The notes under the pieces: generated by a model
Told to the model about the DNA's origin: nothing
What the model saw: the letters and a program-made list of their open reading frames with translations, nothing else
Database searches by the model: none
Program-made: the position numbers and the translations under genes
Shown here: piece after piece, positions 1-58,903 of the stretch
Layout of the letters: every line of letters begins with the position of its first letter
How positions within the stretch are numbered: position 1 is the first letter of the stretch
Assembly (NCBI GenBank): GCA_027490305.1
Contig: JAIXYI010000016.1
Coordinates: 1-64,000, forward strand
Direction: 5' to 3'
DNA from: Flavobacteriaceae bacterium
GTDB lineage: Bacteria > Bacteroidota > Bacteroidia > Flavobacteriales > Flavobacteriaceae
DNA: 64,000 nt

Positions 1-358
1 GATGACAAACGGGGTGTGGTAATGATGCTGTGTTCTCGCTTGGAAGTATCACTGCCTACTGCGACTGCCCACTGTCCACTGTCCACTTCTGCGACTGCGA
101 CTGCCCATCGCCCACTGCCCACTTCTGCGACTGCGACCGCGACTGAATGGGATCCCTCCTGCGTCGGGACGACAAACGGGGCGTGGTAATGGTGCTATGT
201 TCTCGCATGGAAGTATCACTGCCCACCGCCCACTGCGCACTTCTGAGACTGCTACTGCGACAGAGACTGCCTTCGGCGACTGCCCACTGTGCACTTCTGA
301 GACTGCGACTGCGACTGCAAACTGAGACTTTTTCCCTACCTTCACACAAAAAAAGAAC
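1..358. repeat. Intergenic direct duplication with degenerate GCGACTG/CCACTGC tandem words
   Basis: This leader holds no convincing gene. A unit of about 56 bases beginning GATGACAAACGGGG at 1 returns at 168-224 with few changes. Between and after the copies (56-146 and 221-330) are arrays of short words such as GCGACTG, CCCACTG and TCCACTT, mostly spaced 6-7 bp. Reading frames across the region are low-complexity and appear on both strands, so they are repeat artefacts. TACCTTCA at 337-344 is a weak match to the -7 promoter box, 14 bases before the first gene. Confidence 0.75.
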
Positions 359-2627: not shown

Positions 2628-5081
2628 ATGCCGAACCAGAAAATCATGACCTTTGACAGCCTTTCCTTCCAGGAGTTCGATCACGAAGCGGACCTGATTC
2701 CGTTGATGACCCCGGAAGACGAAGAGGAAATGGATAAGGAGAAACTACCCCAGTCACTACCCATCCTGCCGCTCCGCAATACCGTCCTCTTCCCGGGTGT
2801 GGTCATTCCAATCACCGCGGGTCGCGATAAATCTATCCGCCTGATCAACGACGCCAATGCCGGCGACAAGACCATCGGAGTGGTGTCGCAGATCAACGAG
2901 GAAGACGAAGACCCTACGCCGAACGACATCAATAAAATCGGAACCGTTGCCAGCATCCTCCGCATCCTCCGCATGCCCGACGGCAACGTGACCGTCATCC
3001 TGCAGGGGAAAAAACGCTTTGAGATCGATGAGGTTACTACCGAAGTGCCCTATATGCGCGCCACGGTGAAGGAAGTGCCGGAAACCCGTCCGGCGAATGG
3101 TGACAAGGAATTCACCGCTATCATCGATTCCATCAAAGACCTCGCCACGCAGATCATCCAGGAGAGCCCGAACATCCCGACGGAAGCGACCTTTGCGATT
3201 AAGAACATCGAGAGCCAGCCGTTCCTTGTGAACTTCGTATCGTCGAATATGAACCTCGCCGTCAAGGAAAAGCAGGACCTGCTCAAAATGAGCGACCTGA
3301 AAGAACGGGCCCTCGCCACCCTCCGTTTCCTCAACATCGAATTGCAGAAACTCGAGTTGAAGAACGACATCCAGTCGAAGGTGCGTTTCGACCTTGACCA
3401 GCAGCAGCGCGAGTATTTCCTCCACCAGCAAATGAAAACCATCCAGGAAGAACTGGGCGGCGTGTCGCACGAAGAGGAAATCGAAGACATGCAGCAGAAA
3501 GCACGGTCGATGAACTGGGACGAGAAAACCCGCAAGCATTTCGAAAAGGAACTCGGCAAGATGCGCCGCATGAACCCGCAGTCGCCCGACTTCGGCATCC
3601 AGCGGAATTACCTCGAATTGTTCCTGGAACTGCCGTGGAATGTCTACTCAACCGACAACCTCGACCTCAAACGCGCCCAGAAAATACTGGATGAAGACCA
3701 CACCGGACTCGAAGACGTTAAGAAACGCGTCATCGAGCATCTGGCCGTACTGAAGTTAAGGAAAGATATGAAGTCGCCGATCCTGTGTCTTACCGGACCT
3801 CCGGGCGTAGGGAAGACCTCCATCGGGAAATCAATCGCCAAAGCCCTCGGGCGGGAATATGTGAGGATGTCATTGGGTGGACTCCGGGACGAAGCGGAAA
3901 TCCGCGGCCACCGGAAAACCTATATCGGCGCGTTGCCGGGTCGTATCCTGCAGAACCTGCGCCGGGCCGGTACGTCGAACCCCGTCTTTGTACTGGATGA
4001 GATCGACAAACTATCGAGTAGCCACAACGGCGATCCATCGTCGGCCTTGCTGGAAGTACTCGATCCTGAGCAGAATTCGGAGTTTTACGACAACTTCCTT
4101 GAAATGGGCTTCGACCTGTCAAAGGTCATGTTCATTGCGACGTCGAATACCATGAGCAGTATCCAACCCGCCCTTCGCGATCGGATGGAGGTCATTCGGA
4201 TGTCGGGTTACACACTTGAAGAGAAAGTTGACATCGCGCGCGAACACCTGCTGCCCAAGCAATTAGAGCAACACGGCCTTGGTCCGAAAGATCTGGTAGT
4301 CGGTAAAAAACAAATGGAACGCATCGTCGAAGGCTACACACGTGAATCGGGTGTGCGGGCCCTGGAAACCAAGATTGCCCAAGTCGTACGCCATGCAGCG
4401 AAGTCGGTGGCGATGGAAGAAACATACAACAAAAAAGTATCCGATGACGACATCGTGGCCATACTCGGGGCCCCGAAAATGGACCGCAGCAAAGCCGAGA
4501 GCAATGAAGTGGCCGGCGTTGTAACCGGACTCGCCTGGACGAGTGTAGGCGGGGACATTCTCTTCATCGAATCGCTCATCTCCAAAGGCAAAGGCGGTAT
4601 GACACTGACCGGTAACCTCGGTAGCGTAATGAAAGAGTCGGCGACGATTGCGATGGAATACATCAAAGCACACGGCGACAAGTTTGGTATCGATACCGAA
4701 ATATTGCAGAAACACCATGTGCACGTGCACGTTCCGGAAGGGGCCACCCCGAAAGACGGTCCGAGTGCCGGCATCGCCATGCTGACCTCTATGGTATCGG
4801 TCATCCAGCAGAAGAAAGTCAAGAAACACCTGGCCATGACCGGCGAGATTACCCTTCGCGGGCGCGTGTTGCCGGTGGGTGGTATCAAAGAGAAAATCCT
4901 GGCAGCCAAACGGGCCAGCATCAAAGAGATCATACTGTCGGCTGAGAACAAACGCGACATCGACGAGATCAAGCCGGAGTACCTCGAAGGACTGACCTTT
5001 CATTATGTAAAGGAAATGGCAGAGGTATTGCAACTGGCCATCACCGACCAGAAGGTGAAGAACGCGAAGAAATTCGAATAA
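2628..5081 (+). CDS. lon: ATP-dependent Lon protease
   Basis: Cytoplasmic AAA+ serine protease of 817 residues that degrades misfolded and regulatory proteins. The N-terminal substrate-binding domain begins at LPILPLRNTVLFPG (about residue 43). Walker A is GPPGVGKTS near residue 390 and Walker B is VFVLDEID near 455. The catalytic Ser-Lys dyad lies in KDGPSAGIAM (about 712) and GGIKEKILAAKR (about 755). The length matches bacterial LonA with the slightly extended acidic N-terminus common in Bacteroidetes. It appears to be a single-gene unit, bounded by terminators upstream (2458) and downstream (5105). Confidence 0.98.
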   Translation: MPNQKIMTFDSLSFQEFDHEADLIPLMTPEDEEEMDKEKLPQSLPILPLRNTVLFPGVVIPITAGRDKSIRLINDANAGDKTIGVVSQINEEDEDPTPNDINKIGTVASILRILRMPDGNVTVILQGKKRFEIDEVTTEVPYMRATVKEVPETRPANGDKEFTAIIDSIKDLATQIIQESPNIPTEATFAIKNIESQPFLVNFVSSNMNLAVKEKQDLLKMSDLKERALATLRFLNIELQKLELKNDIQSKVRFDLDQQQREYFLHQQMKTIQEELGGVSHEEEIEDMQQKARSMNWDEKTRKHFEKELGKMRRMNPQSPDFGIQRNYLELFLELPWNVYSTDNLDLKRAQKILDEDHTGLEDVKKRVIEHLAVLKLRKDMKSPILCLTGPPGVGKTSIGKSIAKALGREYVRMSLGGLRDEAEIRGHRKTYIGALPGRILQNLRRAGTSNPVFVLDEIDKLSSSHNGDPSSALLEVLDPEQNSEFYDNFLEMGFDLSKVMFIATSNTMSSIQPALRDRMEVIRMSGYTLEEKVDIAREHLLPKQLEQHGLGPKDLVVGKKQMERIVEGYTRESGVRALETKIAQVVRHAAKSVAMEETYNKKVSDDDIVAILGAPKMDRSKAESNEVAGVVTGLAWTSVGGDILFIESLISKGKGGMTLTGNLGSVMKESATIAMEYIKAHGDKFGIDTEILQKHHVHVHVPEGATPKDGPSAGIAMLTSMVSVIQQKKVKKHLAMTGEITLRGRVLPVGGIKEKILAAKRASIKEIILSAENKRDIDEIKPEYLEGLTFHYVKEMAEVLQLAITDQKVKNAKKFE

Positions 5082-5104
5082 AGCCATCCGGTTTACACGA
5101 TACG

Positions 5105-5136
5105 AAGACATCCTTTACCGGATGTCTTTTTTTTTG
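5105..5136 (+). terminator. Rho-independent terminator after lon
   Basis: Stem AAGACATCC/GGATGTCTT followed by nine or more T residues, about 24 bases after the lon stop codon. Confidence 0.9.
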
Positions 5137-5283
5137 GCCGGAGGACGGTTGTGGCCCGATGAAGCACATCCCCTGTGGCTATTACGCGTTTCAGAAAATC
5201 CCGCGAAACGACGGGTTATGCCCCATTTTCGACCGAATTCGGACATCGATGCCCCGCGCTACTTTTAACTCAGTTATGACCGT

Positions 5284-5291
5284 TAAATTTG
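5284..5291 (+). promoter_or_regulatory. -7 promoter box (TAAATTTG)
   Basis: Exact TAnnTTTG match 65 bases before the ATG at 5357. No TTG lies at the usual upstream distance. It supports translation starting at 5357 and not at the earlier in-frame ATG at 5159. Confidence 0.4.
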
Positions 5292-5356
5292 CGCCCCGAA
5301 ACCCAGCGGAGGACCTTCCAAACGCGACACTGTCCCCGCTGTTAGCACACACTAGT

Positions 5357-5842
5357 ATGAGCAATACCACCGAAAATCGCCTCAACACGACCATTGCACA
5401 GGCGGACTTCGTATTGATCGGAGCCGCTATGGCGACAATCGCCGCGAAACTTCCCGCTATAAGCCTTACCGACGTCCAACGCCAGCGGATGAAACGCATC
5501 AATGTAGCGAACAAAGTATTTGTGGAAGACGCCATTCACCATGTGGAGGCGCACGGCGCAGGCATCCTGCCGCCCTATATCTCGGCCACGGCCATGCAAA
5601 CCGACCTCACCCTTTACGAACAGGCCGACCAGATCCGGGCTATGCTGACGGCGCTGCTGCAGCACATAGACGACATCCGGCAGGTAACCGGCGACGAACT
5701 CTATTCAACCGCCCTCATGGCCTATCGCGCGTTCGAAAATGCCCATAAAGTCGGCGTTCCGAATGCCACGATGGCCTATCAGGCGTTGCATGCGCGCTTT
5801 AATGGGCAAGGGCGGGCGCCCGACAAAGAACTTAAGAAGTAA
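5357..5842 (+). CDS. Conserved-looking cytoplasmic protein of unknown function
   Basis: 161 residues from the ATG at 5357 (MSNTTENRL); an in-frame ATG at 5159 would give 227 residues. I prefer the later start because a -7 promoter box lies at 5284 and the extra N-terminus has no recognisable character. The protein is helical and Ala-rich, with no signal peptide or membrane segment. Segments such as QRQRMKRINVANKVFVEDA and GDELYSTALMAYRAFENA suggest a helical bundle. I do not recognise the family. It ends 88 bases before the phased TGAC/GTCA array. Confidence 0.6.
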   Translation: MSNTTENRLNTTIAQADFVLIGAAMATIAAKLPAISLTDVQRQRMKRINVANKVFVEDAIHHVEAHGAGILPPYISATAMQTDLTLYEQADQIRAMLTALLQHIDDIRQVTGDELYSTALMAYRAFENAHKVGVPNATMAYQALHARFNGQGRAPDKELKK

Positions 5843-5930
5843 AACACCCAAATGAATCGGGTATACCGCCCCATCTGCGCCCTTTAACCACTGAATTGAT
5901 GTCTTTGAGGTTAATATAAGTGCCGGCGCT

Positions 5931-6186
5931 GTCAATTAAACTGACTTGGAAGTCAATTAAAGTGCGTAGCAAGTCAATTTAACTGACACACGGGTCAGAA
6001 GAATTGACAAGCAAGTCAGTAAAGTTGACTTCGAAGTCAGCAAAATTGACAAGAAAGTCAGTGAAATTGACTACGAAGTCAGCAATGTTGACAAGCAAGT
6101 CATCAAAATTGACAAGAAAGTCAGTAGAATTGACAAGAAAGTCAGTAGAATTGACAAGAAAGTCAGCAAAATTGACAACGAAGTCA
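5931..6186. repeat. Helically phased TGAC/GTCA array, 21-bp period
   Basis: The words GTCA and TGAC alternate along 256 bases with starts exactly 11 and 10 bp apart: GTCA at 5931, TGAC at 5942, GTCA at 5952 and so on to GTCA at 6183. Of 25 expected positions, 24 are intact (13 GTCA, 11 TGAC); only 5963 is changed (TGCG). The 6- and 7-base spacers vary much more than the tetramers. The 21-bp unit equals two turns of B-DNA, so every word faces the same side of the helix. One pair (6026-6039) is a perfect 14-bp palindrome. A reading frame of seven-residue repeats crosses the array but has no ATG start. The array ends 76 bases before a small HTH-like gene. Confidence 0.9.
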
Positions 6187-6262
6187 TCCTTCGTCTTTTA
6201 CGAATTGCCATAGGAGGGTCAGGACGCTCCTGCCTGTAGTACTATAACCAAACTTGTTGGAC

Positions 6263-6625
6263 ATGAAACGAAATGCATCACCACTGCCGCCTCCGCACAT
6301 AGGGAGATTGCTGGGTAAGATACTTAAAACGCGCAACGTGAGCCGGGCGGTGATGGCCCGGACGATGGGCGTGTCAACCTCCGTGCCTGTACGATACGCC
6401 CAGACATCGTCGATGCTGACGTCGACCCTTTGGGACATCAGCCAGGTGCTCGAGTACAACTTCTTTGCCGATATCGCGGCCTTACTGCCACCCGAGTTCG
6501 ACTCAGGCGTAGTGGCCGATACCACGGCCGATGCCCGCATGGACGAACTGGAACAGGAACTGGCAGCCGTGACCCGCGAACGCGACCTGTTGCTGAAGAT
6601 GATGGCACCTGACCGGCGTCCGTAA
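6263..6625 (+). CDS. Small HTH-like protein with C-terminal coiled coil
   Basis: 120 residues. After a Pro-rich start, the segment HIGRLLGKILKTRNVS followed by VMARTMGVST, then the stretch LWDISQVLEYNFFADIAALLP (residues about 54-74), resembles a Bacteroidetes family of XRE-like HTH proteins in which an HIG-xx-I motif is followed by an ISxxLxxDFF motif. The C-terminus (about residues 92-112, MDELEQELAAV and onward) is a short coiled coil, so a dimer is likely. The helix-turn-helix is divergent and DNA binding is inferred. An in-frame TTG at 6254 is an alternative start. The phased array just upstream is an obvious candidate target site. Confidence 0.6.
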   Translation: MKRNASPLPPPHIGRLLGKILKTRNVSRAVMARTMGVSTSVPVRYAQTSSMLTSTLWDISQVLEYNFFADIAALLPPEFDSGVVADTTADARMDELEQELAAVTRERDLLLKMMAPDRRP

Positions 6626-6787
6626 AAAGGAAGGTAGTCGCTAATCCGGCGGTCCGCGAGGTCACCGAAAGCGAATATTGGGATAGGGCAGGGCAAAGCC
6701 GCATGCTTCTTGCCAACTTCTTCCTTTCTCCCGTCAAAAAATAATATCTTCGCACACGCGTTATCTTTCAAACGCAAATTGCTATTG

Positions 6788-7816
6788 ATGCCCGGGAGAC
6801 GTTTCCTCTTTTTATTGCTTCTCGTTCCTACGTGCGTGCCGGCCCAGATCGGAGGGAAGTCGGTATACCAATTCCTCAGTCTCGTTACCTCACCGCGTCA
6901 GGCGGCGTTGGGAGGTAAGGTGATTACCCTGCGCGATTACGATGTGAATTCGGCTTTTTTCAACCCGGCTTCGATCAACGAGGAAATGCACAACCGCCTG
7001 TCGGCCAACTACGGCAGCCTGTTTGGGGAAGTCACCTATGGCACGGCCGCCTACGCCTATACCTACGACCAGCACGTGCAGACCATCCATGCGGGTGTGA
7101 ACTATGTGAGTTACGGCGCGCTCGAAGGCTATGACGAAAACGGCGAACCTACGGGTACGTTTACCGGAAGCGAGATCGCGTTGTCGGGCGGATACGGGTA
7201 CAATTTACCGTACACCGACTGGTACTTCGGGGCCAACGTTAAGCTCATTTCCTCTACACTCGAACAGTATAATTCCTTTGGCGCGGCGGTCGACCTCGGC
7301 GTCATGTACATCGACGAACCCAACGACATCAACTGGGGGCTTTCCATCCGCAACCTCGGGACACAGTTCACGACCTATGCGGGTACGCAGGAAAAATTGC
7401 CCTTCGAGATCTTGTTAGGGGTTTCACAGGAACTGGAACACGTGCCACTGCGCTGGCATATTACCCTTGAAAACCTCCAGCAATGGCAGGTCGCCTTTTC
7501 CAACCCGGCCCGTTCACAGGGGAACCTGGATGGCGGAGAGACGCCTGAGAAAGTCTCCTTCTTCAACAATGCCCTGCGCCACCTCATTGCCGGGGCCGAA
7601 CTGTTTCCGACCAAAGGCTTCAACATCCGGATCGGCTATAACTTCCGCCGGGGAGAAGAACTGCGGATCGTCGACCAGCGGAACTTCTCAGGGATTTCCG
7701 TGGGCTTCGGACTCAAAATGGGCCGCCTGAAGTTCGATTATTCCTATTCGCGGTATACGCTGGCTGCCAATACCAGCCTGTTTGGACTGACGATCAATTT
7801 TAACGACGATTACTAA
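6788..7816 (+). CDS. porQ: Type IX secretion system protein PorQ
   Basis: 342-residue outer-membrane beta-barrel protein of the PorV/PorQ family. In type IX secretion PorQ works with PorU, PorV and PorZ in the cell-surface attachment complex that processes sorting-domain cargo. Evidence is the signal peptide (PGRRFLFLLLLVPTCVPAQ), the early motif GGKSVYQFLSLVTSPRQAALGG and repeated amphipathic beta strands ending in an aromatic residue. The ATG at 6788 gives a clean signal peptide; an earlier in-frame TTG at 6710 does not. TATCTTCG at 6745 is a near-match -7 box. The DUF1275 gene follows after 6 bases and cmk lies further downstream. Confidence 0.88.
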   Translation: MPGRRFLFLLLLVPTCVPAQIGGKSVYQFLSLVTSPRQAALGGKVITLRDYDVNSAFFNPASINEEMHNRLSANYGSLFGEVTYGTAAYAYTYDQHVQTIHAGVNYVSYGALEGYDENGEPTGTFTGSEIALSGGYGYNLPYTDWYFGANVKLISSTLEQYNSFGAAVDLGVMYIDEPNDINWGLSIRNLGTQFTTYAGTQEKLPFEILLGVSQELEHVPLRWHITLENLQQWQVAFSNPARSQGNLDGGETPEKVSFFNNALRHLIAGAELFPTKGFNIRIGYNFRRGEELRIVDQRNFSGISVGFGLKMGRLKFDYSYSRYTLAANTSLFGLTINFNDDY

Positions 7817-7822
7817 CTACCG

Positions 7823-8530
7823 ATGTTTATCCACCAAGGCAGAACGCGAACAGCTCGCCACAATCTCCAGATTGCGTCGCTGCTTTCGTTCGTCGCCGGG
7901 ATCGTAAACGTCGCCGGGTTTCTGGCCGTCTCACGGCTCACCACGAATGTAACCGGTCATTTTGCCTTTTTTGTGGACGAGGTTTTCAAACTCCACTGGC
8001 TGCAGGGATTTGTCTACTTCCTCTACATCTTTTTCTTTTTCCTGGGCTCGTTTTCCTCCAGTTTCCTGGCAGAGGTACTGACGCGCCGGAAAGCCGGGTT
8101 TGCCTACATTGTGCCCACGCTCATCGAGAGTTTCCTGTTGGTACTTGTCGGGATCGCCGGACCCAGCCGGATCATAAGCCATCCTGACCTAATCGCCTGT
8201 TCACTGCTGTTTGCCATGGGCTTGCAGAATTCGCTGGTCACCCGTATTTCAAAGGCCACCGTCCGTACGACCCACCTGACGGGACTTTTCACCGACCTCG
8301 GCATCGAAGTTTCCCAATTGTTTTTCTATCGCGATACAGACTCCCGTAAACAGCTCCGGGCGTCGATTCGCTTGCGGCTCACGATCATCGGTTCCTTTTT
8401 TACAGGCGGCGTCATCGGCGGTATTTTCTACGGAACGATGGGATTACGGATACTGCTGCTGGGCTCACTGGCGCTTGTGGCGGGTATGGTATACGACCGA
8501 CTGAAGCTGAAACGATTGGGAGTAGGTTGA
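7823..8530 (+). CDS. DUF1275 (YoaK-like) integral membrane protein
   Basis: 235 residues with about six predicted transmembrane helices. The opening segment FVAGIVNVAGFLAVSRLTTN followed by VTGHF is the hallmark of the DUF1275/YoaK family, as is the mid-protein segment GLQNSLVTRISKATVRTTHLTG (about residues 132-153). Its biochemical role is unknown. It starts 6 bases after porQ and is probably co-transcribed with it. No link to secretion is established. Confidence 0.85.
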   Translation: MFIHQGRTRTARHNLQIASLLSFVAGIVNVAGFLAVSRLTTNVTGHFAFFVDEVFKLHWLQGFVYFLYIFFFFLGSFSSSFLAEVLTRRKAGFAYIVPTLIESFLLVLVGIAGPSRIISHPDLIACSLLFAMGLQNSLVTRISKATVRTTHLTGLFTDLGIEVSQLFFYRDTDSRKQLRASIRLRLTIIGSFFTGGVIGGIFYGTMGLRILLLGSLALVAGMVYDRLKLKRLGVG

Positions 8531-11653: not shown

Positions 11654-12111
11654 TGCTGCGCGAACAATACCACTATATTAAAGAAGCGCGTGCCATTTTG
11701 CTGGAATATAGCGAAACGGTGCGCGCTTCCGATTTTGTCAGCGAAGACTCGGGTTTCGGTCCCGGTGCCAGCATGCGTAACCTTCTGGTGCATGTCGCCA
11801 ACTGCTACCAGTTTTGGATAGGGGTATGCTGTTTGGGCCGTGAACGGAATTTTTTCGCTTACGCGGATGTGACCGACATCCAACAAGTTCGGGCGGTTTT
11901 CGACGGCGTCGACGCGATGATGGAGGAGTTCTTTGTGCGCTGCCAACCGGATGATGCTATTCCGTATACAATCCCACACAAAACCGCTGTAGCGAAGGCG
12001 TTGCAACTCTACACACACGCCACCACCCACGAGTTCCACCACAAAGGGCAAGTGCTTTCGATCAGCCGGATGCTGGGGTATACACCGGTGGATACGGATG
12101 TGATGAGGTAG
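11653..12111 (+). CDS. DinB-like four-helix-bundle protein
   Basis: 152 residues. Histidines at the expected DinB metal positions are visible: one in the N-terminal helix (LLVHVANCYQFW, about residue 46) and two in THEFHHKGQVLSISRMLGY (about 123-141). The final HHKGQ-x-x-x-x-R-x-L-G pattern is typical of the DinB/YfiT-like superfamily, many members of which are metal-dependent thiol transferases or are uncharacterised. The start codon overlaps the permease stop. Its specific reaction cannot be inferred. Confidence 0.75.
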   Translation: MLREQYHYIKEARAILLEYSETVRASDFVSEDSGFGPGASMRNLLVHVANCYQFWIGVCCLGRERNFFAYADVTDIQQVRAVFDGVDAMMEEFFVRCQPDDAIPYTIPHKTAVAKALQLYTHATTHEFHHKGQVLSISRMLGYTPVDTDVMR

Positions 12112-12374
12112 TTAGTGGTCAGTAGTCAGTAGTTAGTGGTTAGACACTCCTGTTGCCGTACGCATTACCTCTAATCGTACGTTGGGCCCAATGCCTCCTA
12201 CCCTCACATTTGAGAAGCAGAAACCGTCTTCCCGAGCGCAGCGAAGGGATCCTCGTTAGGAATTAAGGGGTTAGGAGTTAGTAGTCAGTAGTCAGTAGTC
12301 AGTGGTTAGTGGTTGGTGGTTGGTCAGTTCCTCCTCCGCCAATTGTCAATTATCCATTGTTAATTATCAATTAA
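12111..12374. repeat. Heptamer tandem-repeat region upstream of rpsA
   Basis: Three 7-bp arrays: 12111-12145 (about five units like GTTAGTG/GTCAGTA), 12270-12325 (eight units GTTAGGA, GTTAGTA, GTCAGTA and so on to GTTGGTC) and 12340-12374 (five units like CAATTGT/CAATTAT). The last array contains the TTG of the rpsA promoter. The 125 bases between the first two arrays show nothing recognisable. Confidence 0.8.
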
Positions 12375-14341: not shown

Positions 14342-16342
14342 ATGAGGCGGTTATGGTTAGTGTTTGCACTCTCGATTGCTGTTGTTTCCATTTGTGTGGG
14401 ACAGAACATAAGTTTTCCAGACCCTGCGTTTAAGCAGTTGTTGCTGAGCGCACCCTCTGACAACATAGAGGTATCCTCTGGCCCTGGCGGCATATATGAT
14501 ATAGTAGACCTAAACGGAGATGGAGAAGTATCTTACTCGGAGGCGGCACAAGTAGGATCTATTTACATACATAACGTACCGCTTGAAAGCCTTGACGGCA
14601 TCCAGTATTTTGGTCCACTGGGGGTCTTGGGAATGGAAAATTGCGGGCTTTTGCAACTGGATGTGTCCGGCATGCTAATTGGGGAGTTGATCATTAAAGA
14701 GCCTTTGGTGGATCTCAATTTAAATAACACGAATCTATGGTACATCAGTTTAGAGAATACCGCGCTAACGACATTAGATCTTTCGCCTGCTAATTTCGAC
14801 GTTTTGTATCTAAAGAACTGCTTATCCTTACAGACTGTGTTTGTTAAAAATGGCGAAGATGATTCAGATAAGTTTGCCAGTGTTGACAATTGTCCCGCTT
14901 TGGCTTATATATGCGAAGACGAAGATTTTGTAGATCAAACACAGTTGGCGCTAATCAATTTTGGTCTTTCATGTGAGGTAAACTCTTATTGTGATTTACT
15001 TCCTGGCGGTGTGTATTATTTAATTTCCCATTCCGCACACTTTGATGCCGATAACGATGGCTGCGATGATGCAGATCCATTTTTCTCAAAGGTTTGGGTA
15101 GCAATAACAGGTGCGGGAAATCCCACGCTTGACTATGGTGCACAGGGAGGTATCAGCCATTCGATAGGTGTAAACGCAGGCAGCTATTCGGTAGTACCCA
15201 TTTTAGAAAACCCTTCCTATTTTAATGTAAACCCCTCTAACGTAGACGTTCAGTTTCCTGTCAATTCCTCACCGTTCGAGATAGATTTTTGTGTAACGCC
15301 TAACGGTGTAAAGCACGATGTCGGTGTTGCGATATTGCCTGTTTCTGTAGCCATCCCCGGCTATGCGGCTCAGTACAGGATCGTGTGTCGGAACCAGGGT
15401 AATCAGCCTGCTTCGGGCTCTCTTAGTTTTCATTATCCGGAAGGTCTGTCGCTGACAAACGCAGGCGGTGGTACCGTAACAATGAATGGATTAGAATTTG
15501 AGTATACAGACCAATCTGTTGGTGCTACCTGGGTCTATGATCTAACATTCATCGTGAATAATGGCTTCGGTATGCCCCCGGTAGAAGAGGCTGATGTTTT
15601 GGATTTCAGTACCATTATATCATGTGTGGGTCAAGACGAGAATCCTGATGACAACACATTTACGTTGCAGCAAACCGTTGTAACCTCCTTCGATCCTAAC
15701 GACAAAACGTGCCTTGAAGGGAATACCCTCGATCCATCAATGGCCGGAAAGTACGTGCATTACCTGATTCGATTTGAAAATACAGGAACCGCAAATGCGC
15801 AGAATATTGTCGTGAAGGACGTAATCGATACTACTAAGTTTGATGTTTCGTCCCTTATTCCGCTTGACGGTAGCCATCCTTTTCAGACAAGGATCACGTC
15901 CAATAATAAAGTCGAGTTCATTTTCGAAAACATCCAACTGCCGTTCGACGATGCCCACAATGACGGATTTGTCGCGTTTAAGATTAAGACAAAGTCCACG
16001 CTGATAGCCGGAGATACGTTCAGTAACGCCGCCAACATCTATTTCGACTACAATGCCCCCATCGTAACGAATACAGCTACGACAACGCTGCAAGCGCTTG
16101 GTGCTTCTGATTTTGATTTCGACCGTTACCTTACAATATGGCCGAATCCGGCGTCAGATATACTGCACATCGAAGGCGCTTCCGGCGTGCGTTCGGCTCA
16201 AGTATACGACCTGAGCGGAAGGCTCGTAACGTCCTTCTTACATGCCAAAGAAATGGACCTGACGCAGCTTGAAGCCGGAACCTACCTGTTACGGGTGCAT
16301 ACCGAAAAAGGCGTGGCGGCTACGCGTTTCGTCAAGCAGTAA
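14342..16342 (+). CDS. Secreted protein with type IX sorting domain and DUF11-like repeats
   Basis: 666 residues. A signal peptide (LVFALSIAVVSICVGQ) is followed by an EF-hand-like segment DLNGDGEVSYSEA (about residue 58) embedded in leucine-rich-like repeats (about 75-170). Beta-sandwich domains follow, including the widespread Bacteroidetes segment SFDPNDKTCLEGN (about 448) and FENTGTANAQNIVVKDVID. The last ~75 residues start at LTIWPNPASDILHIEG and end in GTYLLRVHTEKGVAATRFVKQ, a type A sorting domain. It should be exported by type IX secretion and attached to or released from the surface. The gene is A/T-richer than its neighbours. It converges on the next gene, with only 5 bases between. 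Confidence 0.88.
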   Translation: MRRLWLVFALSIAVVSICVGQNISFPDPAFKQLLLSAPSDNIEVSSGPGGIYDIVDLNGDGEVSYSEAAQVGSIYIHNVPLESLDGIQYFGPLGVLGMENCGLLQLDVSGMLIGELIIKEPLVDLNLNNTNLWYISLENTALTTLDLSPANFDVLYLKNCLSLQTVFVKNGEDDSDKFASVDNCPALAYICEDEDFVDQTQLALINFGLSCEVNSYCDLLPGGVYYLISHSAHFDADNDGCDDADPFFSKVWVAITGAGNPTLDYGAQGGISHSIGVNAGSYSVVPILENPSYFNVNPSNVDVQFPVNSSPFEIDFCVTPNGVKHDVGVAILPVSVAIPGYAAQYRIVCRNQGNQPASGSLSFHYPEGLSLTNAGGGTVTMNGLEFEYTDQSVGATWVYDLTFIVNNGFGMPPVEEADVLDFSTIISCVGQDENPDDNTFTLQQTVVTSFDPNDKTCLEGNTLDPSMAGKYVHYLIRFENTGTANAQNIVVKDVIDTTKFDVSSLIPLDGSHPFQTRITSNNKVEFIFENIQLPFDDAHNDGFVAFKIKTKSTLIAGDTFSNAANIYFDYNAPIVTNTATTTLQALGASDFDFDRYLTIWPNPASDILHIEGASGVRSAQVYDLSGRLVTSFLHAKEMDLTQLEAGTYLLRVHTEKGVAATRFVKQ

Positions 16343-43402: not shown

Positions 43403-43440
43403 CGAAAACGATTGAAATCTGGAGTTGGTTGGCGGGGAGG

Positions 43441-43482
43441 GTTGAGAGTTGAGGGTTGCGAGTTCAGGGTTCAGGGTTTACA
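43441..43482. repeat. Heptamer array (GTTGAGA/GTTCAGG type)
   Basis: Six units of 7 bp in register: GTTGAGA, GTTGAGG, GTTGCGA, GTTCAGG, GTTCAGG, GTTTACA. Confidence 0.75.
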
Positions 43483-53638: not shown

Positions 53639-53930
53639 AGACCGCACGGCCATTGGCCCGCAACTTTCTACGGATTCGGGAACCGCACCCCCCGAGGGAA
53701 GAGAGGGCTGATACCGACATTTTGGGTTCATAGTTCATAGTTCATAGTCGTGGTGGGGCAGGCCTTACCTACTTCCATGTACAAAGCGTGGCTTGCCTTC
53801 TTTTTTCCTAACCTATTGGTTACGGATAGTCGCTCATCGTTCGTCTTGATTATCCATTACCCATCCTTCATCGCTCATCGTTCATTGTACATCGTTCATC
53901 GTTCATCGTTCATTCCCCTATCTTTGTCTC
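53639..53930. repeat. Gap with heptamer arrays (TTCATAG and TTCATCG types)
   Basis: TTCATAG three times at 53727-53747, and seven units like TTCATCG at 53867-53915. The latter ends 3 bases before the promoter box at 53919. No gene was seen in this gap. Confidence 0.8.
53919..53926 (+). promoter_or_regulatory. -7 promoter box (TATCTTTG) almost touching the start codon
   Basis: Exact TAnnTTTG, only 4 bases before the ATG at 53931. Transcription would begin at or next to the ATG, so the mRNA may be leaderless. Confidence 0.5.
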
Positions 53931-58822: not shown

Positions 58823-58826
58823 GGAG

Positions 58827-58903
58827 GAGCAAGGAGGAAGGAGCAAGGAGGAAGGAGCGAGGAGCGAGGAACCAAGAACTAAGAACCCAAAACCCAAAAC
58901 CCG
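58827..58903. repeat. Heptamer array (GAGCAAG drifting to AAACCCA)
   Basis: Eleven 7-bp units in perfect register: GAGCAAG, GAGGAAG, GAGCAAG, GAGGAAG, GAGCGAG twice, GAACCAA, GAACTAA, GAACCCA, AAACCCA, AAACCCG. The word changes stepwise along the array. Confidence 0.9.

Follow-up and report, generated by a model that had tools for sequence, protein, structure and literature searches.

A helically phased array of inverted words beside a predicted helix-turn-helix gene: a candidate multi-site operator in a Flavobacteriaceae genome

A short segment of a Flavobacteriaceae genome (assembly GCA_027490305.1, contig JAIXYI010000016.1) raises the question of which protein would read a long series of regularly spaced, inverted tetranucleotides, and to what end. 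The window analysed in the current work is the whole stretch of 64,000 nucleotides corresponding to positions 1 to 64,000 of that contig, in which the words GTCA and TGAC alternate between positions 5931 and 6186, upstream of a gene (here called hth) specifying a predicted helix-turn-helix (HTH) protein and downstream of a gene for a predicted all-helical protein (gene 1). Based on comparative analysis of sequences, the array is probably the cognate multi-site operator of the HTH protein encoded downstream of it, with autocontrol being the likely outcome and with further arrays presumably being occupied in trans. The features from which the argument starts are the following, with lengths given in base pairs (bp) or amino acids (aa):

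5931..6186, no strand assigned: core array of 25 GTCA/TGAC positions at 11/10-bp steps, with a unit of 21 bp
5963..5966, no strand assigned: the sole damaged word, TGCG replacing TGAC
5910..5930, no strand assigned: decayed edge unit, GTTA...TGCC, obtained from a dynamic-programming chain of units
6187..6262, plus strand: 76-bp stretch between array and hth, the presumed hth promoter
6263..6625, plus strand: hth, 120 aa, predicted Cro/C1-type HTH and putative array-binding protein
5357..5842, plus strand: gene 1, 161 aa, predicted all-helical, a recurrent upstream partner of arrays

Layout and conservation of the words

The initial annotation of this DNA had described 25 alternating positions with 24 intact words and TGCG at 5963, and this layout was reproduced by script: GTCA is intact at 13 of 13 positions (5931, 5952 and onwards to 6183) and TGAC at 11 of 12 (5942, 5984 and onwards to 6173), with steps of exactly 11 and 10 bp. 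The distance of 76 bp between the last word and the HTH start codon was likewise recovered. Towards its edges the array consists of decayed units, and, by inspection of the sequence, its first three units look like later units in reverse complement. A three-word pattern allowing up to two mismatches had 32 matches in the window, where 100 shuffles averaged 4.45 and none of them reached 32, and the exact three-word pattern gave 27 forward and 32 reverse matches in the whole genome, where a reversed control pattern gave none in either direction. The array is therefore real and beyond chance.

When the array was cut into 12 units by phase alone, six word columns carried 2.0 bits and two carried 1.59 bits, as compared to 0.42-1.59 bits for the spacer columns. 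Across the 53 units of the four arrays of this type in the genome (see below), mean pairwise identity amounted to 0.74-0.88 for word columns and 0.48-0.62 for spacer columns, a figure with a bias towards the words, given that the units were chained by word match. In a scan of 21 offsets the originally proposed word position ranked first (0.833), and the runner-up, offset 10 (0.815), overlaps the same words. In the window array the tetramers are thus better conserved than the spacers. The latter are not fully free, since AA preceding GTCA and AAT preceding TGAC are also well conserved.

Arrays upstream of the HTH gene family

In the AlphaFold2 model of the HTH protein (mean predicted local distance difference test score 88.9), the HTH helices occupy residues 13-63 and are followed by a long C-terminal helix of 27 residues (88-114). 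Family members align across their whole length; the alignment represents 24 of 30 loci (33 places listed), and at E <= 0.1 Pfam assigned HTH_26 to 16 and HTH_3 to 8 of these 24 members. The best Foldseek hits, HipB and the restriction controller C.BclI (probability 1.00, E 0.0075 and worse), are dimeric operator binders, as is C.Esp1396I, a further restriction controller among the nearest folds. By these profile and fold comparisons, the hth product is predicted to be a Cro/C1-type (XRE) HTH protein. Within the genus, which to judge from the names of protein hits is likely Flavobacterium, 150 genomes were sampled and 16 of them, the own genome included, contained homologues; of 296 genomes sampled across the phylum, 18 gave a profile match. 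The narrower family (E < 1e-13) is present in seven genomes of the phylum sample (G000, G337, G651, G374, G094, G141 and G575), with G094, G141 and G575 belonging to other taxonomic families. The phylum search returned 44 places, 30 of which were made into loci, with three duplicates of earlier loci being dropped. Four HTH loci are present in the genome under study, namely that of the window and the paralogues C25, C56 and C32.

A periodicity test was applied to 60 loci, in which autocorrelation at 20-23 and 42-44 bp across the 320 bp upstream was compared to that of dinucleotide shuffles, with a cut-off of z > 4. Following removal of duplicates, an array was detected upstream in 35 of the 39 family loci (34/38 leaving out the window), as opposed to 3/38 in downstream controls of the same genes (L244, L247 and L269), 0/38 far upstream and 0/18 upstream of distant HTH relatives. 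An upstream array is therefore a property of this HTH family and not of HTH genes generally. The best lag was 21 bp in 13 loci, 22 bp in seven, 44 bp in seven, 43 bp in five and 42 bp in three, a mixed outcome as regards the 10/11-bp spacing foreseen for homologous arrays.

The words themselves differ between loci, being CTACGCA/TGCGTAG at L246, ACCAAT/ATTGGT at L249, CCCT/AGGG at L262, and GTAG/CTAC together with TTCG/CGAA at the own paralogue L252. TGAC is consequently not a general feature: other genomes keep the period (21/22 bp or its double) and change the words, which explains why a genus-wide TGAC search finds nothing elsewhere. The exact four-word TGAC array was encountered only in the own genome among 398 sampled genomes of the genus, four others containing a single one-mismatch match each; with 0/397 in the other sampled genomes, TGAC arrays are ruled out as a common flavobacterial element.

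Within the own genome (3.49 Mb, 88 contigs) four TGAC arrays were located, at C1:5931 (the window), C1:78408, C82 (~117253) and C86 (~27658). A genome scan at up to three mismatches gave at least 76 matches, versus at least 22 for the reversed control pattern, with no fifth array among the matches listed. The flanking open reading frames (ORFs) are co-directional at both C1 arrays, divergent at C82 and convergent at C86. The three further arrays have no family HTH gene alongside, contrary to the expectation that TGAC arrays always lie near the small HTH gene. Such orphan arrays also exist for other words: those of the own C25 paralogue recur at C78:5380-5572 with 80% identity, and arrays resembling that of L249, with no HTH gene alongside, are present in the genome of that locus (G171, C1:4513907, E 2.7e-13) and in G153 (C45:196773, E 1.3e-6), the latter genome encoding an HTH protein of that type (L261). 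Three genomes thus have orphan arrays whose words resemble those at one of their own HTH loci. A profile search at the orphan loci and beside the three TGAC arrays yielded no gene 1 or HTH match of note.

As a separate observation made by eye, two similar leucine-repeat-like proteins are encoded on the same contig (L021 4907-6948 and window 14342-16342), with an orphan array lying ~250 bp upstream of the start of one of the two genes.

Candidate readers of the array and their possible roles

Over 741 pairs, array similarity followed protein identity with a Spearman coefficient of 0.25, the rise stemming from pairs above 60% identity: same-genome paralogues below 60% (13 pairs) showed 6-mer cosines of at most 0.41, and at a protein identity above 0.75 the mean 6-mer cosine of the arrays was 0.54-0.60. 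Among the 55 pairs formed by 11 closely related proteins of one clade, array similarity correlated with identity of the recognition helix (13 alignment columns) at rho 0.92 and with that of the rest of the protein at 0.72, with helix and rest identities correlating at 0.72; these values are descriptive only, because the pairs are not independent. Ten pairs with a helix identity below 0.5 share on average 73% identity outside the helix, and their words are unrelated (mean cosine 0.21). The helix GILPTGLNEYFKK occurs at four loci, all with ACCAAT words, and the helix NIRPKGLTAYCKR at two, both with CCCT/AGGG words; between these two groups the rest of the HTH protein remains ~73% identical and the gene 1 proteins beside two such arrays are ~85% identical, so that gene 1 does not explain the change of word. 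These comparisons suggest that HTH subfamilies have words of their own, read by the recognition helix of each subfamily. The initial proposal of a cooperative operator, or switch for the HTH gene, is in keeping with own upstream arrays at 35 of 39 loci and with words that track the helix in the clade tested; generality of TGAC and constant adjacency to an HTH gene are not borne out.

In the operator model preferred here, the inverted words, all on one face of the DNA, would be filled by HTH dimers at 21 bp per dimer, and the C-terminal helix would join neighbouring dimers, two turns (21 bp) apart, into a continuous nucleoprotein stretch. Filling of the array would likely control hth itself, whose promoter is presumed to lie in 6187..6262. 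In trans, the same protein would bind the three other TGAC arrays and the orphan arrays of other family members, either regulating neighbouring genes or bridging loci. We infer binding, cooperativity, autoregulation, the direction of regulation, the role of gene 1 and the effect of orphan arrays.

A number of observations weigh against the operator model. The window HTH protein itself has no Pfam match, and its model obtained no Foldseek hit at E 0.001 or better. Four family loci fall below the cut-off (L248, z 2.88; L255, -0.77; L268, 3.48; L269, 0.99); 41/42-bp repeats are visible by eye at L255, and L269 contains an in-frame stop. Only 22 of the 39 loci show significant inverted symmetry of their consensus (p <= 0.05). 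Co-variation of arrays and proteins is in part due to common descent, and the pairs are non-independent. No orphan arrays were found for the own paralogues C56 and C32 (two of the four own HTH loci), nor orphan counterparts of the L254 and L246 arrays, and the orphan array at C86, situated between convergent ORFs, is ill-suited to an operator role. Finally, arrays were detected downstream of gene 1 in 12 of the 14 measured loci lacking a family HTH alongside, and 10 of the 14 gene-1-only genomes examined hold no family HTH (seven repeated HTH places being counted once in this survey), for which reason another protein, or gene 1, must read these arrays.

The latter numbers favour a different assignment, in which gene 1 or an associated further protein is the reader and the HTH protein is an accessory at some loci; we regard this as rather improbable. 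The search for gene 1 homologues produced 45 places and 30 loci, 28 of which were measurable for downstream arrays. An array was present downstream in all 14 measured loci with a family HTH alongside, and upstream of gene 1, as control, in 1/30 (L348). The two gene-1-only loci short of the cut-off are L348 and L351, repeats being visible further on in the latter. By eye, arrays were seen in 10 of 12 further gene 1 regions (none in L362 and L371), with two of the 12 regions repeating measured loci, and the gene-1-only words AACCCC/GGGGTT and ACCACGT/ACGTGGT recur in different genomes. Conversely, a gene 1 homologue lies upstream of the array on the same strand in the window and at 13 of 30 HTH loci (11 of these 13 hits forming gene 1 set A2), and at the remaining 17 none was found in the fetched stretch (at L251 the end of gene 1 is truncated by the contig edge); 15 of these 17 still carry an array with z > 4. 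Moreover, gene 1 proteins of ~85% identity stand beside unrelated words when the HTH helix differs, and the all-helical gene 1 model matched no solved fold below E 3.7. Gene 1 belongs to no Pfam, NCBIfam or PADLOC family, and P0002 is a 93% relative of it. Gene 1 homologues without a family HTH nearby, mostly with phased arrays, are seen at L342-L355, L361, L363, L364, L369, L370, L372 and L373.

The leading rival to the operator model retains the HTH protein as reader and assigns it to one-protein chromosomal tethering or segregation, the protein pairing arrays with one another or with the nucleoid in the manner of StbA, with regulation being secondary. The size of the array, the several copies per genome, the orphan array between convergent ORFs at C86 and the C-terminal helix are consistent with such a role, as is the analogy with StbA (PMC3098194) and KfrA (PMC7783346) in the passages available from these sources. 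On the other hand, the plasmid collection contained no match to the HTH protein or gene 1, the phage collection none to one HTH member or to gene 1, and viral contigs none to one HTH member; the cassette, furthermore, is without a nucleoside triphosphatase (NTPase). Tethering or segregation is considered unlikely, and a phage or plasmid origin was rejected on the same collection searches.

Two further explanations would dispense with a DNA-binding reader. According to the first, which is very unlikely, the arrays act as RNA, transcribed into a long, regularly interrupted hairpin. The window array does fold better than dinucleotide shuffles (z -11.1 on the plus and -9.5 on the minus strand), and scrambling within spacers weakens the plus-strand fold (z -3.97, with 0/60 scrambles as stable), so that nucleotides flanking the words contribute to the pairing. 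However, when whole spacers (z -0.31 to 2.37) or units (z -1.23 to 2.11) were swapped in the four arrays on both strands, the real order was never favoured, and any arrangement of such units would therefore produce the fold. Neither window positions 5000-7000 nor L021 gave a match in Rfam.

According to the second, the array is a decayed or neutral coding minisatellite specifying heptads VSKIDKK or KSVKLTR. The relevant feature is as follows:

6004..6213, plus strand: open frame across the array with KSVKLT repeats, judged not to be a gene

A unit of 21 bp corresponds to seven codons. Two frames stay open through the later half of the window array (by eye), array B has one open frame in each direction, and some same-layout arrays in other bacteria resemble coding heptads (L119, by eye). 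Nevertheless, none of the frames is open in all four arrays, the 69-aa frame has no homologue, the words outconserve the spacers in the window array, and several family arrays use a 22-bp unit, all of which make a coding origin scarcely credible.

The operator model places array and hth within a unit whose surroundings are as follows:

2646..5081, plus strand: lon protease gene, left neighbour (Pfam Lon_C, LON_substr_bdg and AAA)
6788..7816, plus strand: porQ (type IX secretion), right neighbour (NF033711, E 8.8e-135)
5135..6720, plus strand: cassette of gene 1, array and hth, approximate extent with presumed ends that are not base-exact

Sixty relatives were searched for this locus and the 29 best porQ matches of the 54 relatives with a match were inspected. 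In 26 of these 29 lon and porQ adjoin, with a gap of 94-308 bp (one of the others has a partial lon match and two have none), as compared to ~1.7 kb in the window, and neither gene 1 nor HTH was found in the 29 fetched lon-porQ stretches. The unit of gene 1, array and hth therefore looks like a cassette inserted as a whole.

Beyond porQ, a DUF1275 gene (window 7823-8530) separates porQ from cmk; no DUF1275 match was found around porQ in the 29 relatives, where cmk follows porQ. The genome also contains many short tandem repeats whose units measure 6 or 7 bp, at window positions 50-137, 12108-12324, 43437-43478, 53726-53913 and 58825-58902, and, by eye, at L021 4230-4330.

Comparison with known systems

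The array beside hth likely belongs to a whole family of private address systems, each pairing a protein with its DNA words, and protein families whose members carry their own long, regular sets of binding sites are, to our knowledge, rare. No description of the system was found in the literature searched, which mostly excludes subscription papers. A wider proposal, conceivable but doubtful, is that such a family, diversifying on Bacteroidota chromosomes, would combine a small coiled HTH protein, an all-helical partner, a two-turn-phased array of private words and orphan arrays, would gather distant loci into a common nucleoprotein body by means of one protein, and would acquire new words by joint change of helix and array. 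Public genomes contain natural HTH-array pairs by the dozen, many of which differ in their words, and the correspondence between recognition helix and DNA word could therefore be read directly and tested on short synthetic DNA. If orphan arrays were indeed bound in trans, the system would also be a straightforward example from nature of how a single protein links loci far apart on the chromosome.

Several established classes were considered and rejected. A type II toxin-antitoxin pair does not fit, given that gene 1 and hth lie 420 bp apart around the array and that gene 1 was not found in 17/30 HTH loci. ParABS-type partition does not fit a cassette consisting of gene 1 and hth, neither having an NTPase match. 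For a plasmid iteron with its adjacent initiator, the neighbours are instead lon, gene 1, hth and porQ, and the same neighbours, together with a 21-bp unit and similar spacers, speak against a CRISPR (clustered regularly interspaced short palindromic repeats) array.

Pattern scans of public collections for the same layout returned at least 114 stretches and a further 77, with ORFs being viewed for 11 of the first set; by eye, some of the stretches resemble coding heptad repeats. Two actinobacterial loci (L056 and L079) have the identical TGAC-N6-GTCA-N7 layout in five words, with MarR-family and cupin genes alongside. They differ in protein family and are short, each a single intergenic stretch; MarR proteins would presumably bind there, and these MarR-type operators are likely a convergent solution. 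MarR-family genes were confirmed beside L056 (1064-1109), L079 (5086-5131) and L095 (5350-5405). Tandem TTGAC-N6-GTCAA stretches are seen in many Streptomyces, Nocardia and Actinoplanes records (many of L041-L153), and enterobacterial five-word TGAC/GTCA stretches in surroundings of low guanine-plus-cytosine content (L044, L047, L051, L061, L080, L098, L103 and L114). At L051 and L080 an unclassified protein of 270-300 aa is encoded nearby, which might be a plasmid initiator but had no Pfam match. Viral contigs also carry six-word arrays of the same layout (L155, L171, L183, L202, L208, L219, L224 and L226).

As regards proteins, HipB, C.BclI and C.Esp1396I resemble the HTH protein in the predicted fold of the DNA-binding domain. 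They use one to few operators, and we know of no such C-terminal helix in them. In the passages available from their description, AvtR and SvtR are proposed to spread over DNA as polymers, starting at strong sites and extending to weak ones, with AvtR repressing its own gene, and they differ in having a ribbon-helix-helix fold and degenerate sites instead of long exact arrays (PMC5569661). KfrA of RA3 is likewise portrayed as an HTH protein with a helical tail and an autoregulator acting at five 9-bp repeats at its own promoter; in the same passages it differs in repeat length, count and orientation, in being plasmid-borne, in a motif not found elsewhere in RA3 and in an HTH modelled on KorA (PMC7783346). 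Its partner protein, KfrC, is all-helical, like the predicted gene 1 product. The KfrA tail is a long coiled coil, whereas the tail helix of the window HTH protein measures 27 residues only.

StbA of R388 binds 9-bp repeats that come in two groups of five, with 2 nucleotides between neighbours and hence 11-bp steps (PMC3098194). According to the available passages, StbA-stbDR shares with the present system a repeat array upstream of its own operon or gene and a motif that also occurs at further promoters of the replicon (PMC3098194), and both an array upstream of the own gene and sites elsewhere were found here. Compared by described features, StbA-stbDR differs in its direct repeats, its plasmid location and its partners StbB and StbC (PMC3098194), whereas the window system has up to 25 words in alternating, inverted orientation, words that differ between paralogues, and a chromosomal location; plasmid carriage with StbB/StbC does not apply, there being no plasmid-collection match and the neighbours being lon and porQ. 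As far as the available passages show, the combination of inverted words, two-turn phasing, about two dozen words, change of words between paralogues and orphan arrays is present in none of StbA, KfrA and AvtR/SvtR, of which StbA and KfrA, as described there, are the closest in working principle.
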